Assembly: GCA_013289985.1 (NCBI GenBank)
Contig: JABCYW010000012.1
Location: forward strand, 1-64,000
Length of the DNA: 64,000 nt
Direction: 5' to 3'
DNA from: Betaproteobacteria bacterium
GTDB lineage: Bacteria > Pseudomonadota > Gammaproteobacteria > Burkholderiales > Burkholderiaceae_C
Part shown: in pieces, positions 58,193 to 63,747 of the stretch
Layout of the letters: each line of letters opens with the position of its first letter
How positions within the stretch are numbered: the first letter of the stretch is position 1
The notes under the pieces: model-generated
What the model was told of the DNA's origin: nothing
The model's input: only the letters and a program-made list of their open reading frames with translations
The model's database searches: none
Position numbers and translations under genes: made by a program

Positions 58193-58201
58193 GGCAGGCT
58201 T

Positions 58202-58278
<77 letters not shown>

Positions 58279-58287
58279 GAACGTCCG

Positions 58288-58322
58288 AAAGCCTTGCGAG
58301 TCACCGACTTGCAAGGCTTTTT
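58288..58322 (+). terminator. Rho-independent terminator of the tRNA gene
   Basis: Stem AAAGCCTTGC / GCAAGGCTTT extended by GAGTC / GACTT around ACC, about 15 bp in total, followed by five T. Confidence 0.9.
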
Positions 58323-58463
58323 CCATTTCTGGCGCCATCTCGCTGATCGAGCATCGCGGCCACGTCGAGGTCGCGAAGCTCACCGGGAACGGCAAGCTCG
58401 CGTCCGATGGCGTCGATTCCAGGAAGTCTCCACAGAGTCCAGGAGTTCCATGCAGGGCAGCCG
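58323..58463. other. Non-coding stretch between the tRNA and arsR
   Basis: No gene. A frame on each strand stays open for some 35-45 codons without a start or a recognised motif, so it may hold a decayed gene end left by insertion. No copy of the tRNA 3' end was seen here. Confidence 0.4.
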
Positions 58464-58491
58464 TTCAATAATTCCATTATTCTGGTATTAT
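58464..58491 (+). promoter_or_regulatory. Promoter/operator of the ars operon
   Basis: TTCAAT (58464-58469), 16 bp, TATTAT (58486-58491). The spacer region holds the inverted repeat AATAAT-TCC-ATTATT (58467-58481), a fitting ArsR operator. The predicted start of transcription is at the arsR ATG, so the message could be leaderless. Confidence 0.55.
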
Positions 58492-58497
58492 GGATAG

Positions 58498-58821
58498 ATG
58501 AACGAAGACCAGGTCATCAGGGCGCTCGCGGCCCTGGCCCATCCGGTGCGGCTCAAGGCCTTCCGCGCGCTCGTTGTCTCCGGGCCGCAAGGCCTGACGC
58601 CCGGCGTCATGCAGGAGGGCCTGGGCATCCCGGCCACCACGCTGTCCTTCCACCTGAAGGAGCTCGCGTCGGCCGGGCTCGTGACCCAGGAGCGCGCCAG
58701 CCGCAACCTGCTCTACCGGGCCGCCTACGACCAGATGAACGGCCTGCTCGGCTACCTCACCGAGAACTGTTGCGCCGGCACGGCCTGCGCCCTGCCTTCG
58801 TCGCCGGCCGCCTGCTGCTGA
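58498..58821 (+). CDS. arsR: ArsR family arsenic-responsive repressor
   Basis: 107 residues, winged-helix HTH (about 5-85; LAHPVRLKAFRAL and TTLSFHLKELASAGLV). Cysteines are at the C-terminal end: Cys91, Cys92 and Cys97 (ENCCAGTAC), plus Cys106/107. This places the As(III) site away from the classical CxC of the E. coli protein, as in the ArsR type found with arsI or aqpS operons. It likely represses its own operon from the AT-rich palindrome just upstream. First gene of arsR-arsI-aqpS-arsC. Confidence 0.88.
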   Translation: MNEDQVIRALAALAHPVRLKAFRALVVSGPQGLTPGVMQEGLGIPATTLSFHLKELASAGLVTQERASRNLLYRAAYDQMNGLLGYLTENCCAGTACALPSSPAACC

Positions 58822-58846
58822 CTCTTCCACCGCCAAGGAGATCGCC

Positions 58847-59332
58847 ATGAAACGCTTCCACATCCACGCCCACGTCGCCGACCTCGAGGCAAGCATCGCC
58901 TTCTACTCGAGGATGTTCGCGACCGAGCCGACCCGCATCGAAGTCGACTACGCGAAATGGATGCTCGACGACCCGCGCATCAACTTCGCGATCTCCACCC
59001 GCGGCAGCAAGCTCGGCGTCGACCATCTCGGCATCCAGACGGACACCGAGGCGGAACTGGTCGCCTTGAAGGCGCAGGCCGAAGCCGCGGATCTGACGCT
59101 GGCGGACGTGGGCGAGGCCAGCTGCTGCTATGCCCGCAGCGACAAGTACTGGGTCACCGACCCGCAAGGCATCGCCTGGGAGCAGTTCCACACGCTGGGC
59201 AACATTCCGGTGTTCAGCGAGGCCTCGCCTGCAGGCCAGGAGGCCGAGGCTGCCTGCTGCGCGGGCAGCACGCCGCGCGGCAAGGCCATCGGCATCCCGG
59301 TCAAGGGCGCGGCCGGCACCTCGTGCTGCTGA
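58847..59332 (+). CDS. arsI: ArsI/CadI-type VOC protein, putative C-As lyase
   Basis: 161 residues, vicinal-oxygen-chelate fold. Candidate iron ligands are His5 (or His7), His60 and Glu112; the vicinal cysteines Cys93-Cys94 in ASCCYARSDKYWVTDPQG correspond to those that bind organoarsenicals in ArsI. The tail has three more cysteines pairs/ends (AACCAG, TSCC). ArsI splits methyl-arsenite or aromatic arsenicals with O2. CadI-type metal protection is the alternative. Second gene of the ars operon. Confidence 0.8.
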   Translation: MKRFHIHAHVADLEASIAFYSRMFATEPTRIEVDYAKWMLDDPRINFAISTRGSKLGVDHLGIQTDTEAELVALKAQAEAADLTLADVGEASCCYARSDKYWVTDPQGIAWEQFHTLGNIPVFSEASPAGQEAEAACCAGSTPRGKAIGIPVKGAAGTSCC

Positions 59333-59337
59333 GCCGC

Positions 59338-60003
59338 ATGGACGCCGACTTTCCGACGTCACGCCGGCTGATCGCCGAAGGGCTGGGGACGGCCCTGCTG
59401 CTCGCGATCGTCATCGGCTCGGGCATCATGGCCCAGCGCCTGGCCGGCGGCAACGTCGCCCTCGCGCTGCTGGCCAACACGCTGGCCACCGTCGGCGGCC
59501 TGCTGGTGCTCATCGAGGTGTTCGGCCCGGTCAGCGGCGCGCACTTCAATCCGGCGGTGTCGCTCGTGATGGCCAGCCGCGGCCAGCTGGCGTGGGCGCT
59601 GCTGCTGCCCTACGTCGCGGTGCAACTGCTGGGCGCGGTATCGGGCGCCTGGCTGGCGCACGCCATGTTCGACATGCCCATCGTGCAGTTGTCGACCAGG
59701 CTGCGCAGCGGCACGGGTCAATGGATCGCGGAAGGCGTCGCCAGCTTCGGCCTCGTGATGGTCATCCTGCGCGCGCCCGCGACGCGCGTCTCCGCCCTGG
59801 TCGCGGCCTGGATCGGCGCCGCCTACTGGTTCACGGCGTCGACGTCCTTCGCCAATCCGGCCGCGGTCTTCGGCCGGATGTTCAGCGACAGCTTCGCGGG
59901 CATAGCGCCGTCCAGCGCCCTCGGCTTCGTCGCGGCGGAGCTGGCGGGCGCGGCGCTCGCCGTGGCGGCGCACGGCTATTTCACGGAGACGATCCATGCC
60001 TGA
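59338..60003 (+). CDS. aqpS: Aquaglyceroporin (AqpS type)
   Basis: 221 residues, about six transmembrane helices with two half-helices: NPA at 71-73 (HFNPAVSL) and NPA at 173-175 (FANPAAVFGRMF). In ars operons such channels let As(III) made by ArsC leak out down its gradient, replacing an ArsB/Acr3 pump. Neither arsB nor acr3 is present here, which supports that role. The ATG at 59338 lies 5 bp after arsI; its end overlaps arsC by 8 bp. Confidence 0.85.
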   Translation: MDADFPTSRRLIAEGLGTALLLAIVIGSGIMAQRLAGGNVALALLANTLATVGGLLVLIEVFGPVSGAHFNPAVSLVMASRGQLAWALLLPYVAVQLLGAVSGAWLAHAMFDMPIVQLSTRLRSGTGQWIAEGVASFGLVMVILRAPATRVSALVAAWIGAAYWFTASTSFANPAAVFGRMFSDSFAGIAPSSALGFVAAELAGAALAVAAHGYFTETIHA

Positions 60004-60418
60004 AGTCACGATCTTCCACAACCCGGCGTGCGGCACCTCGCGCAACGTGCTGGGCCTCATCCGCCATGCCGGCATCGAGCCGCTGGTCATCGAGTACCTG
60101 AAGACCCCGCCGACCCGGGAACGGCTCCGCGCGCTCGTGGCGGCGATGGGCATCGGCGTTCGCGAGCTGCTCCGCGAGAAGGGCACGCCCTACGCGGAGC
60201 TCGATCTCGGCAACCCGAAATGGAGCGACGAGGATCTTCTCGACTTCATCGTGCGGCACCCCCTCCTCATGAATCGCCCGGTCGTCGAGACGAGCCTCGG
60301 AACCAGGCTCTGCCGGCCGTCAGAGGCCGTGCTCGAGCTGCTGCCGGTCGGCAAGCTGCCGCCGTTCACGAAGGAGGACGGCGAGATCGTCGAGGACAAC
60401 GGCGCACGGCGCGCCTGA
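59996..60418 (+). CDS. arsC: Arsenate reductase (glutaredoxin-dependent)
   Basis: 140 residues, thioredoxin-like ArsC fold. The catalytic Cys12 lies in HNPACGTSRN, and Arg60, Arg94 and Arg107 have the same numbers as the substrate arginines of the E. coli plasmid ArsC. It reduces As(V) to As(III) with glutathione and glutaredoxin. Overlaps aqpS by 8 bp; last gene of the operon. Confidence 0.93.
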   Translation: MPEVTIFHNPACGTSRNVLGLIRHAGIEPLVIEYLKTPPTRERLRALVAAMGIGVRELLREKGTPYAELDLGNPKWSDEDLLDFIVRHPLLMNRPVVETSLGTRLCRPSEAVLELLPVGKLPPFTKEDGEIVEDNGARRA

Positions 60419-60527
60419 TCCTCGCTGGTGGCGCGCCGCGGGCGGGAAAACCGGGGCCGGGCCGAGTGCCGCGCGATGGCATGATCGCGCCACTGTCGAG
60501 CAAGCTCCGGGCATCACCCTCCCTTCC

Positions 60528-63104
60528 GTGCGACCGTCCTCCCCGCCCTCCCGCGCCGCGGCGCTCCGGCTCAGCCTGGGCGTTGCGGCCATGCTGCTGG
60601 TCGCCGCGCTCGCCGACCCGTCGGGCATCTTCGCCTGGGTCGGATGGACCGGCTCGCCGGTCGCGGCCACGTGGTGGTGGGCGCCCTACGTCGTGCAGGT
60701 GCCGGCGATCCTGGCGATCGTCCACGTGGGCGCGCTCTGGAGCGCCTCGGGGTCCGCGGCGCTCTCCCGATCGCGCACGTTCTTCGGTGGCTGGGCGCTG
60801 GCCACGCTCGCCGCGGGCATCGGCGCGGTGCTGCACGCGCTGTGCGTGCTGCTGCCCCTGGCCTGGCACGGCGTCTACGTGATCGGCTGGGGCCCCACCT
60901 GGGGCTTCGTGCTCTGGAGCAGCGGGTACGCCGCGCTGAAGATGGCACTGGTGGGATGGCTTCCCGCGCTGCTGGCGAGCGTGGGGCGGCGCGAGCCGGC
61001 GGGCGTCGTCTCCGCGCGCCCGCGGCCGGACGGCGCGACGCGCGAGCGCCTGGGCACGGGCCTCGCGGCGCTGGCCATCGCGCTGCTCGCGCCCTGGCTC
61101 GCCGCGCATTGGTGGCAAGGCGCGCCGCTGGGCTTCACCCGCGACGCGGGCGCCCCGCTGCTGGCACCGACGCCGGCGAGCGGCGCGGGCCTCGCGGCGC
61201 TCGCCCTCGTGGTGCTCGCCGCCCTGCTGCGCCGGGGCCTCGCGCGCCGCCTCGCCGACGCGCCGCTGGACGATGCGCGCGCGACCTTCGCCGCCGGCGC
61301 GATCGCGGGCGTCGGCGCCGTCGCGGGGCTGTGGCTCGTCCAGGCGCTCGCGCTGCTCCCGTCGCTGCGGGCCCACGCCGTGCATCCGGACTCGTGGTGG
61401 ATGCCCACGCTGTTCGTCCGCGCCGTGGACGCCGCGTCGTTCGCGCTGGTCGTGGCCTTCGTCGCGGGCGCCGGCGCCGTGGCGGCGGGCGCTGTGCAGC
61501 GCGCGTGCCCGCGGCGCGCCGAGGGTGCGCTCCGCATCGCCGGCGTCGTGGCCTTCCTGGCGGCGGTGGGCCTCGAATACGGCGCGCCCGCCCCGCCGGC
61601 GTCCGCGCCGATTCCGGCCATCGCGCAACCCTCGTCCGCGGATGCCGGCGCGCCGTCGCCCCTGTCCGTGCGCACCGGTCCCGCCGGCCCGCAGATCGTC
61701 GACGCGAGCGGCGCGCGCATCACGCTGCGCGGCGTCAACATCAACCAGCTGGGCGAGTACTTCCGGCGCGACCCGGCGCTGCCCGCGGTGCAGCCGCTCG
61801 CCGAGCAGGACTTAACGGACATCGCCGCGCTGGGCATGAACGTGGTGCGCCTGACGCTGTCGTGGTCGCTGCTGGAGCCCGAGCGCGGCCAGGTCTCGCG
61901 GCCCTACCTGGCGCGCATCCGCCAGGCGCTCGCGTGGGCCAGGGCGCATCGCGTCCGCGTGCTGCTGGACATGCACCAGGACGGCTGGGGCGCGCACGTG
62001 GCGGCCGCGCCCGGCACGCGCTGCCGCGCGGGCACCGAGCCCATGACCGGCTGGGACGGCGCGCCGGCCTGGGCCACGCTCGCCGACGCCACGCCGCCCT
62101 GCATGGTGACGGGCCGCGACCTCGCGCCCAACGTCTCGCGCGCCTTCCAGTCGTTCTACGTCGACCGCGACGGCATCCAGTCGCACCTGGTGCACTGCTG
62201 GCAGGTGCTGGCCGCCGAGTTCGGCGACGACGCCACCGTGGCCGGCTACGACCTGCTCAACGAGCCCAACTTCGGCGAATCGCCGCCGCTCGCCTCGACC
62301 CTGCTGCTGGCCAACTACCACGCGCGCAGCATCGCCGCGATCCGCGCGGGCGAGGCGCAGCGCCCCGGCGGCTTCGCCCACCTGGTGCTGATCGAGCCCA
62401 GCATCATCTGGAGCGGCTTCGGCATCGACAACCTGCCGCCGCGCGGCTTCACCGGCGACACGCAGCTGGTGTTCTCGCCGCACCTGTACAACGAGTCCAT
62501 CACCGCCGACCAGGATCTCGGCCTGACGCTGGTGTCGGTGGAGCGCGGCGTCGCGCTGGCCCAGGCCGCCGCGGCGCAGCTCGGCGCGCCGCTCTGGATC
62601 GGCGAATGGGGCTACTTCCGGGCGCCGGTGCTCGACGCGCCGCTGATGCTGCGATCGGCCGACGCCGAGGACACGTCGACGATGGGCTCCACGTTCTGGG
62701 TCTGGAAGCAGGGCTGCAGCGACCCGCACGTCTGGCCCGGCGCGGTGGCGGGCAACGTGCGGCTATTGTCCTGCCCGCAGGGCGCCGACATCGGCACCGC
62801 CACCGCGCTCACGCGCGTGCTGGCGCGTCCGTACGTGCGCCTGTCCGCCGACGCCGGCGCGCGCCTGCTCGCGAGCGCCGACCGGCTGGTGCTGGAGGGC
62901 GACGGCGCCGGCGCGGGCCACGGCTGCGCGCTGCAGCTGTGGGTGCCGGGCGATGCGGCGCCTCAGGTGACGGCGGTCGCCGGCATGAGCGCGCCGCAGC
63001 TCACGCGCCAGGCACCCGGCGGCGCCACGCTGGGCGCGAGCGGCGGCTGGCTGGTCGATGCCTGCCTGGCCGGCGGCGCGTGGCGCCTGCAACTGCGACG
63101 TTGA
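60528..63104 (+). CDS. Polytopic membrane protein fused to an endoglycoceramidase-like GH5 domain
   Basis: 858 residues from a GTG start. The first ~345 residues contain about eight to nine hydrophobic helices; a Pro/Ala linker leads to a GH5 domain (about 380-760). Its landmarks are LRGVNINQLGEYF, VRLTLSWSLLEPERG, LLDMHQDGWG, the acid/base Glu in YDLLNEPNFG (about 580) and the nucleophile Glu in IGEWGYF (693). These match endoglycoceramidase-like enzymes, which cleave glycans from sphingolipid head groups. Secreted relatives have a signal peptide; this one has a membrane module. Substrate unknown. It stands alone, 109 bp after arsC. Confidence 0.78.
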   Translation: MRPSSPPSRAAALRLSLGVAAMLLVAALADPSGIFAWVGWTGSPVAATWWWAPYVVQVPAILAIVHVGALWSASGSAALSRSRTFFGGWALATLAAGIGAVLHALCVLLPLAWHGVYVIGWGPTWGFVLWSSGYAALKMALVGWLPALLASVGRREPAGVVSARPRPDGATRERLGTGLAALAIALLAPWLAAHWWQGAPLGFTRDAGAPLLAPTPASGAGLAALALVVLAALLRRGLARRLADAPLDDARATFAAGAIAGVGAVAGLWLVQALALLPSLRAHAVHPDSWWMPTLFVRAVDAASFALVVAFVAGAGAVAAGAVQRACPRRAEGALRIAGVVAFLAAVGLEYGAPAPPASAPIPAIAQPSSADAGAPSPLSVRTGPAGPQIVDASGARITLRGVNINQLGEYFRRDPALPAVQPLAEQDLTDIAALGMNVVRLTLSWSLLEPERGQVSRPYLARIRQALAWARAHRVRVLLDMHQDGWGAHVAAAPGTRCRAGTEPMTGWDGAPAWATLADATPPCMVTGRDLAPNVSRAFQSFYVDRDGIQSHLVHCWQVLAAEFGDDATVAGYDLLNEPNFGESPPLASTLLLANYHARSIAAIRAGEAQRPGGFAHLVLIEPSIIWSGFGIDNLPPRGFTGDTQLVFSPHLYNESITADQDLGLTLVSVERGVALAQAAAAQLGAPLWIGEWGYFRAPVLDAPLMLRSADAEDTSTMGSTFWVWKQGCSDPHVWPGAVAGNVRLLSCPQGADIGTATALTRVLARPYVRLSADAGARLLASADRLVLEGDGAGAGHGCALQLWVPGDAAPQVTAVAGMSAPQLTRQAPGGATLGASGGWLVDACLAGGAWRLQLRR

Positions 63105-63147
63105 GATGCCGGCGCCGCACTTCGGCCCGACGCGCCGAATGCGCTCG

Positions 63148-63747
63148 TCAGGCGCCGTCCAGCGCGGTATTGACCGTCTCGACGAACAGCCCTGGCTCCA
63201 CCGGCTTGGACAGCAGCGTCACGCCGGGCGGGAGCCCGCCCAGCCTGTCGACATGGGCGGCCGAATGCGCGGACACCGCCACGATGGCCGGCGGCCGCGC
63301 GGCGCCCTGGCCGGACAGGTGGCGGATCATCTCGACGCCGTCCATGTGGGGCATCGTGATGTCGGTGACGATCAGGTCGGGCATGGCCTTGCCCACCTCG
63401 ATCAGCGCGTCGAAGCCGTTGGGGGCCACGACGATGCGCGCGCCCGGCGCGGCCATCTCCACCAGCGCGCACAACAGGTCGCGGTCGTCGGCGTTGTCGT
63501 CCACCACCAGCACCGAGAACGGCACCACCGCCTCGGTGGCCTCGCCCCCGCGCTGCTGCATCTGGGCGCGGATGAAGGCCTCGGCGCTGTCGGCGTCGAT
63601 GCGGCGATGGCCGCCCACGGTCTTCCAGGCCTTCAGGTGCCCGAGATCGACCCAGCGCTGGACGGTGGGCACCGACACGCCGAGCCGGCGCGCCAGGTCG
63701 GCCGTGGAATAGGAAGGCGGACCCTGCGGGCGACGGGAGGTGGGCAT
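63148..63747 (-). CDS. HTH (MerR/BldC-like)-receiver fusion protein
   Basis: 199 residues. An N-terminal HTH of the excisionase/BldC type (about 12-60: YSTADLARRLGVSVPTVQRWVDLGHLKAWKTVGGHRRI) is joined to a receiver domain (about 78-195) with VVDDNADDRD, phospho-acceptor Asp129 (VTDITMPHMDG) and Lys in LLSKPVEP. Response regulators usually carry the receiver first; here the DNA-binding domain is N-terminal. The partner kinase may be the HPt protein beginning at 63795. Confidence 0.82.
   Translation of the reverse strand: MPTSRRPQGPPSYSTADLARRLGVSVPTVQRWVDLGHLKAWKTVGGHRRIDADSAEAFIRAQMQQRGGEATEAVVPFSVLVVDDNADDRDLLCALVEMAAPGARIVVAPNGFDALIEVGKAMPDLIVTDITMPHMDGVEMIRHLSGQGAARPPAIVAVSAHSAAHVDRLGGLPPGVTLLSKPVEPGLFVETVNTALDGA

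Follow-up and report, generated by a model that had tools for sequence, protein, structure and literature searches.

The window analysed here is a stretch of 64,000 nucleotides from a Betaproteobacteria bacterium (assembly GCA_013289985.1, contig JABCYW010000012.1, positions 1 to 64,000); at 60528-63104 (+) it holds a single gene for an 858-residue protein in which nine predicted transmembrane helices precede an endoglycoceramidase-like enzyme of glycoside hydrolase family 5 (GH5). Judged by sequence, the enzyme half is of a known kind and the combination appears to be newly described here; no prior report of such a union was found in the literature searched, which omits most subscription journals. 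In total, 14 fused proteins of this type, the window's included, were found in Burkholderiales and Actinomycetota. A galactosylceramide-type hydrolase is the reading that we tentatively favour, at somewhat less than even confidence: an inner-membrane protein whose periplasmic GH5 domain would cut the beta-galactosyl head group from a lipid, with sphingoid-base catabolism downstream in relatives. The parts of the gene are the following:

60528..63104 (+): whole gene, 858 residues; membrane domain, linker, GH5 and C-terminal beta domain
60528..61571 (+): N-terminal membrane domain, residues 1-348, nine predicted transmembrane helices (AlphaFold models, loop charges)
61572..61682 (+): linker of low confidence, residues 349-385 (block pLDDT 58, 34 and 30 over residues 341-370; lowest identity of the four protein segments)
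61683..62732 (+): GH5 catalytic barrel, residues 386-735 (PF00150 at residues 391-727; 6jyz match at residues 389-840; Foldseek)
62259..62267 (+): acid/base glutamate motif N578-E579-P580 (sequence, conservation)
62601..62609 (+): nucleophile motif G692-E693-W694 (alignment to 6jyz and endoglycoceramidase II, conservation)
62733..63104 (+): C-terminal beta domain, residues 736-858 (DSSP on the model; partly covered by the 6jyz match)

The open reading frame is present exactly as first described. Its GTG start is the sole ATG, GTG or TTG codon before helix 1 in the open frame; because inspection by eye revealed no clear ribosome-binding site upstream of it, the exact N-terminus is uncertain and may shift by a few residues. 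PF00150 (Cellulase/GH5) matches residues 391-727 (E 1.3e-20, 74.4 bits against a curated cut-off of 23.5), which assigns the domain to GH5, and the only further Pfam match of the protein at E 0.1, to GH42, is sub-cut-off and lies on the same barrel. In the full-length AlphaFold2 model (alignment of 13 sequences; mean pLDDT 76.1, pTM 0.82), nine long helices between residues 7 and 348 are followed by the linker, a beta/alpha barrel and a C-terminal beta domain, with confidence below 50 at residues 31-46, 350-373 and certain barrel loops, including 580-586 and 655-667. Residues 1-350 modelled separately (14 sequences; pLDDT 77.5, pTM 0.79) again gave nine long helices. The preliminary description had counted eight or more helices before a complete GH5 domain with both catalytic glutamates, and had seen a membrane-tethered relative of endoglycoceramidases; the models, the PF00150 match, E579 and E693, and the solved structure nearest to the GH5 half (6JYZ) bear this out.

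All eight residues that we take to be the canonical GH5 positions (R441, H483, N578, E579, H652, Y654, E693 and W724) are present in the window protein. Across the 13 aligned fusions, R441, H483, N578 and W724 are kept without exception and E579, H652, Y654 and E693 in 12; the fourteenth fusion (L029, from an actinomycete) has NEP and GEWG motifs, and both catalytic glutamates are kept in 13 of the 14. In the phmmer alignment to endoglycoceramidase II (EGC II), the position of E693 is occupied by Glu in 2osw and by Ser in the deposited 2osx sequence. The deviating member, from Herbidospora sakaeratensis (L020:7797-10016), carries S, K, A and A at the positions of E579, H652, Y654 and E693 and, by its sequence, is likely a pseudoenzyme. 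It retains the membrane domain, which is ~50 residues shorter than that of the window protein (297 versus 350 residues to the same column); that a dead-looking enzyme still carries this domain suggests that the latter can have an importance of its own.

A sequence search of solved chains placed 6jyz first (E 2.7e-99, 336.8 bits, residues 389-840), followed at a distance by EGC II (E 4.8e-21, 77.8 bits) and endoglycoceramidase I (EGC I; E 1e-11, 47.0 bits), and 6jyz was also rank 1 in Foldseek for the full model (E 5.5e-32, 39% identity, target TM-score 0.88). The title of this structure is 'Crystal structure of endogalactoceramidase'. Membership in EGC I finds no support in the NCBIfam model NF051847, which scored 69.3 against a cut-off of 700. 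Among solved structures, the nearest relative of the GH5 half by sequence and by fold is thus endogalactoceramidase (EGALC), not EGC I or II, and since the nearest solved relative is an endogalactoceramidase, galactosyl lipids are a better guess for the substrate than ganglioside-type lipids. The nearest characterised enzymes cut ceramide lipids, according to PMC3526467 and PMC10476572; the former also describes one GH5_29 enzyme that was studied and is active on 6-gala lipids, which, by its title, 6JYZ probably represents.

While 6JYZ is the best match by both sequence and fold and its catalytic motifs align, it is named a 'putative secreted endoglycosylceramidase', and its crystallised chain of 476 residues, ~30 of which precede the match, is without the nine-helix domain in the solved part. 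EGC II (2OSX/2OSW; GH5_28) and EGC I (5CCU/5J14) share the GH5 barrel and the catalytic pair with the fusion but are further off (77.8 and 47 versus 336.8 bits). The contrast with known secreted endoglycoceramidases drawn at the outset agrees with PMC3526467, which calls the subfamilies GH5_27, 28 and 29 exclusively extracellular endo-glycosylceramidases. In place of secretion, the window protein has nine predicted transmembrane helices in an N-in/C-out arrangement, although its catalytic domain is still predicted to lie outside the cytoplasm.

The helices are predicted at residues 7-29, 44-74, 81-113, 121-151, 167-196, 220-242, 250-282, 291-326 and 331-348. The mean Lys+Arg counts of the loops, averaged over 13 sequences with four residues taken into each helix, alternate from the N-terminus to the linker (2.5, 0.5, 2.4, 0.5, 3.2, 0.8, 2.5, 0.5, 3.8 and 1.2). 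This alternation predicts the N-in/C-out topology and hence a GH5 domain in the periplasm, or outside the cell in actinomycetes; counts vary between sequences, that of the N-terminus being 0 in two and that of the linker 5 in one. Among the membrane residues with the strongest conservation, several (D30, P31, G33, G42, W195, W196, P200, G202, A213, P214 and W290) are located at or in the outer loops, where the enzyme also lies. Between six Burkholderiales and six Rhizocola/Catellatospora sequences, identity is 27% in the membrane part and 53% in the GH5 part; on these sequences the membrane part is conserved, less so than GH5. The joint conservation of enzyme and nine-helix domain in Burkholderiales and Actinomycetota points to a specific task of the membrane part in handling the lipid.

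Searches for relatives of the membrane domain yielded little. Pfam gave no family for the window's domain and, across the 14 members, three families with a single member each (E 0.063, 0.4 and 0.72); the best hit of a PDB sequence search had E 0.77, and Foldseek with the membrane-domain model (pLDDT 77.5) returned nothing under E 0.001, the best match having E 0.037 and a TM-score of 0.14. VIA with the same model reached a Z-score of 5.8 at best (root-mean-square deviation 5.3, 110 residues aligned), a range common for helical bundles according to the VIA notes. On sequence and model, the domain thus appears to be without a recognised relative, short of a proven new fold. A ceramidase-type (CREST) fold was considered but seems a poor fit: no histidine is found among the membrane positions kept in at least 11 of 13 sequences, unlike what would be expected of that family. 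An internal repeat of residues 1-158 and 159-330 was not accepted (hhalign probability 3.4, E 0.013).

The fusion is not confined to the window organism, within the genome of which it is the single match. In the 399-, 399- and 396-genome searches described here, at most two, two and five candidates, respectively, were scored per genome, so that all prevalences are lower bounds. Among 399 genomes of the family, six matches were obtained at E 1e-10, five of them full-length (own genome included) and one GH5-only; among 399 genomes of the order, three were obtained, the own genome and two GH5-only matches. The full-length fusion is 52-67% identical in four other Burkholderiales genomes. A scan of genome contigs gave 12 loci, four of which belong to genomes already counted in the family search (three recognised by directly matching flanking DNA, one by identity across the gene), the new ones being an Oxalobacteraceae metagenome-assembled genome and seven actinomycetes (Rhizocola, five Catellatospora species and Herbidospora). 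In the actinomycete phylum (396 genomes), there were two matches to the membrane profile, one of them new and confirmed as a frame fused with GH5.

Within this limited sampling, the membrane domain was never met alone: five genomes checked gave one profile match each, always in the fusion, and in the own genome the only profile match beyond the fusion had an E-value of 0.277. A search for the same two-part architecture, as had been proposed, found it in both phyla, and the circumstances that would have spoken against it, separate genes in all relatives or missing catalytic residues, were not encountered in the window protein and its relatives as a group, the parts being fused in 13 of 13 other membrane-domain proteins found and both glutamates being present in all but one of the fusions. 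A local fusion of genes that are separate in relatives is ruled out by 14 continuous fused frames, which come from two phyla and are all ordered alike. Carriage of the fusion on plasmids was also rejected: 12 plasmid records gave partial matches only, with less than 30% identity and none covering 80% of the query. Three unfused endoglycoceramidase-like proteins of other Burkholderiales (L006, L007 and L008) are 28-33% identical over part of GH5; they have a signal-type leader, no membrane domain and a long extension C-terminal of GH5, and the leaders of L007 and L008 end in a lipobox-like GGC/TSC.

What the fusion may act on is suggested mainly by its neighbours in relatives. All fusion-bearing Burkholderiales found outside the window's genus, four loci in number (G067=L050; G084=L051; G034=L052, Roseateles violae; G786=L053), have in common, by tblastn, a major facilitator superfamily (MFS) transporter, an AraC regulator with arabinose-binding domain, an FGGY kinase, a class II (FucA-type) aldolase and a class III aminotransferase. 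A GH27 alpha-galactosidase and a TonB receptor occur in two of the four and GH2 in one; the families were named by Pfam/NCBIfam on one to three copies each and otherwise assigned by similarity (55% or more). Fusion and aminotransferase lie within ~6.5-15 kb in these loci. In G786, AraC, fusion, kinase, aldolase, aminotransferase and an aldolase-like gene follow each other on one strand with gaps of less than 50 bases, and in the Oxalobacteraceae locus 19 bp separate the fusion from the start of the kinase, which has the same orientation. GH2 and the fusion overlap by four bases in L011, provided that the GTG start of the fusion is right.

Whereas architecture, catalytic residues, nearest structure, predicted topology and the neighbourhood common to four relatives come out of the computations, we infer what the substrate is, what the membrane domain does, which pathway follows and that the window organism uses the enzyme on that substrate as well. 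These could come together in the following manner: In relatives with a TonB receptor, this receptor would import the glycolipid or its glycan to the periplasm, where GH27 and GH2, if present, may trim galactose. At the bilayer, the membrane-bound GH5 domain would then split galactose from the lipid with its two glutamates, by the retaining mechanism usual for such enzymes, leaving the lipid part in the membrane; the sugar set free would, in relatives, be dealt with by the co-encoded galactosidases. The bond would most likely be that between galactose and ceramide in 6-gala/neogala-type glycosphingolipids from fungi or invertebrates. The nine-helix domain would be more than a signal anchor, holding the enzyme at the bilayer and probably receiving or positioning the lipid part. 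Should the lipid be a phytoceramide, cleavage of its amide would yield phytosphingosine; transamination at C2 would turn this into a ketose-like ketone that carries hydroxyls on C1, C3 and C4, and phosphorylation at C1 followed by FucA-type cleavage would give dihydroxyacetone phosphate (DHAP) and a fatty aldehyde.

It is possible, if rather doubtful, that the fusion in this way provides the first enzyme of an undescribed route by which bacteria consume fungal or plant glycosylphytoceramides and in which the membrane domain passes the lipid on and, in several relatives, the aminotransferase (phytosphingosine to 1,3,4-trihydroxy-2-ketone), the FGGY kinase (at C1) and the FucA-type aldolase (C3-C4 split to DHAP and fatty aldehyde) replace the known phosphate-lyase route. 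The title of Aoki 2004, a work cited by PMC4174763 and PMC12942302, mentions zygomycete lipids that have a Gal-alpha-6-Gal-beta-6-Gal-beta core, and such a core fits the set of GH27, GH2 and endogalactoceramidase. Alpha-hydroxy phytoceramides are abundant in Rhizopus delemar, as stated in PMC11595932; for Mortierella alpina, a review table in PMC12942302 gives mainly ceramides and glucosylceramide, and thus not every zygomycete need make neogala lipids.

Several features of the kinase, aldolase and aminotransferase genes bear on this proposed route. In the aldolase alignment, a Glu and the HTH motif are kept in seven of seven sequences and the NHG motif in six of seven, residues that are presumably the functional positions of class II aldolases. 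In Rhizocola hellebori (L054:1595-3811, -), aldolase and aminotransferase form one frame of 738 residues (PF00596 at residues 8-187, PF00202 at 329-691) next to which an FGGY kinase is encoded; this natural fusion links both enzymes to a single pathway. The D-ribo arrangement of phytosphingosine matches the C3,C4 configuration of FucA-type products. For 5-deoxyribulose 1-phosphate, this configuration is 3R,4R according to PMC6079011. The 5-deoxyribose salvage pathway treated there resembles the module in that a class II aldolase splits a ketone 1-phosphate into DHAP and an aldehyde, as proposed here, but it uses a kinase, an isomerase and a FucA-type aldolase, the module having FGGY kinase and class III aminotransferase in place of kinase and isomerase. 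No literature pairing phytosphingosine with FGGY, class II aldolase or fuculose was among the matches listed, most subscription journals not being covered.

Similar sets are found on plasmids. The closest plasmid aminotransferases, from Burkholderia ambifaria (73%) and Butyrivibrio fibrisolvens (60%), are both accompanied by an FGGY kinase, a class II aldolase and an aldehyde dehydrogenase, the last matching best, in both cases sub-cut-off, the MdlD model; no fusion was listed within ~12 kb on either side of the two sets. The B. ambifaria set (NZ_CP152372.1, L058:9685-16760) comprises FGGY kinase, aldolase, aminotransferase, a second conserved protein, a short-chain dehydrogenase/reductase, an aldehyde dehydrogenase and an Mpo1-like gene; it is flanked on both sides by IS5 genes, on a plasmid typed as conjugative. 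The Mpo1-like gene matches PF06127 (E 2.8e-23), the Pfam name of which is 2-hydroxy-palmitic acid dioxygenase, and Mpo1 acts in yeast phytosphingosine breakdown; this is an isolated instance, however, and the gene, which shares four bases with an IS5 gene, is possibly truncated. On plasmid pNP243 of the rumen bacterium Butyrivibrio fibrisolvens (L059:8882-20181), a GtrA-family gene lies inside the kinase-aldolase-aminotransferase set and the aldehyde dehydrogenase is nearby. Directly after the aminotransferase, L013 (14469-15128) and L058 (13444-14091) have homologous genes (43% identity); the L013 product matches Aldolase_II (42.5 bits against a cut-off of 22.2), that of L058 has no Pfam match at E 0.001, and both are possibly a second, altered aldolase subunit.

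A number of observations weigh against the galactosylceramide reading or narrow it. The member from Herbidospora has lost both catalytic glutamates, and in actinomycete members the inner loop 152-166 also holds up to nine acidic residues, which bears on the predicted topology. The four positive loci are mutually related, so that four of four does not amount to four independent events, and ten neighbour proteins in six actinomycete loci exhibit no catabolic-cluster theme. At E 1e-60, the aminotransferase is present in five of the 13 genomes examined, namely the four Burkholderiales relatives and Rhizocola; the window's genome, three congeners (one fusion-bearing), two Catellatospora, Herbidospora and G972 yielded none. 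Four of the five fusion-bearing actinomycetes examined thus are without it, and Rhizocola has it on a different contig from the fusion. The window's 72 kb contig has no relatives of GH27, GH2, TonB, MFS, AraC, kinase or aldolase at E 1e-8, its sole partner-like match being a 37% aminotransferase, and the FGGY matches in both fusion-bearing genomes of the genus are only 25-29% identical. Since the partners are absent from the contig and the aminotransferase from the genome, the pathway cannot be read into the window organism. A ceramidase was not identified in the four clusters. Moreover, plant galactolipids and galactans also contain such galactose linkages, and GH27, GH2 and TonB would equally fit either of them.

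This ambiguity leads to the unlikely, but not negligible, alternative that the enzyme cuts beta-galactosyl diacylglycerols (monogalactosyl- and digalactosyldiacylglycerol, MGDG and DGDG), not ceramide glycolipids, after an alpha-galactosidase has first trimmed DGDG. Plant galactolipids greatly exceed neogala lipids in abundance, and GH27 and GH2 beside the fusion in two and one of the four relatives, respectively, would suit them. Against diacylglycerols stand the ceramide lipids on which the nearest characterised enzymes act, as well as the aminotransferase of all four clusters, which implies an amino-containing aglycone, whereas diacylglycerol is without an amino group. A galacto-oligosaccharide or galactan hydrolase with a sugar-transporter membrane domain, by which cutting and uptake would be coupled, is improbable. 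It would account for nine helices with a predicted periplasmic catalytic domain and for TonB, MFS, GH27 and GH2 as neighbours, and many of the best 50 Foldseek rows for the membrane domain are what we take to be MFS transporters; these rows, however, are not significant, a separate MFS gene is already present in all four loci, and the aminotransferase would be left unexplained.

The proposal of the preliminary description that the enzyme could act on the cell's own glycolipids or an envelope glycan, thereby remodelling them, is in our estimate also of low probability. Membrane tethering with a predicted periplasmic catalytic domain would suit it, as would the position of the gene on the window's contig, outside the catabolic cluster of its relatives. 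On the other hand, the distribution is patchy (full-length in five of 399 family genomes, only the own genome in the order's 399, two candidates scored per genome), and the catabolic-looking neighbours in all four Burkholderiales relatives outside the genus suggest an outside food source rather than own glycolipids. The tethering part of that proposal thus stands, and its substrate is less supported. That two adjacent genes were read as one, or that the fusion is a one-off by chance, is hardly credible: fourteen frames are continuous in two phyla, and all that speaks for an artefact is that the parts have no known joint function.

The galactosylceramide reading is testable through the partner genes of relatives, from which both a substrate class and a definite series of enzymes for sphingoid-base breakdown can be predicted; bacteria feeding on such glycolipids would supply new endogalactoceramidases for glycolipid analysis and synthesis.

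In the window itself, the fusion is preceded on the same strand by a set of arsenic-resistance genes:

58498..60418 (+): arsenic set of HTH_20 regulator, ArsI/CadI-type protein, MIP channel and ArsC (Pfam/NCBIfam)

The arsC gene ends 109 bp upstream of the fusion, to which the set is probably functionally unrelated. The preliminary description had placed the fusion next to an apparently acquired segment; GC content is 76.7% in the fusion, 69.7% in the arsenic set and 70.5% in the window. Within the set, the ArsI/CadI-type protein scores above the NCBIfam cut-off, and the MIP-channel frame overlaps arsC by eight bases. A scan of 58200-63400 for promoters and terminators found 0 and 0, with 0.2 and 1.3 expected. 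The fusion-bearing congener G293 has different neighbours, two M4 peptidases and a LuxR-type regulator being among the five genes scanned upstream and one downstream. Beyond the fusion, the window holds at 63148-63747 (-) a gene in which an N-terminal helix-turn-helix domain of excisionase/MerR type is followed by a response-regulator receiver domain, which is an unusual order.

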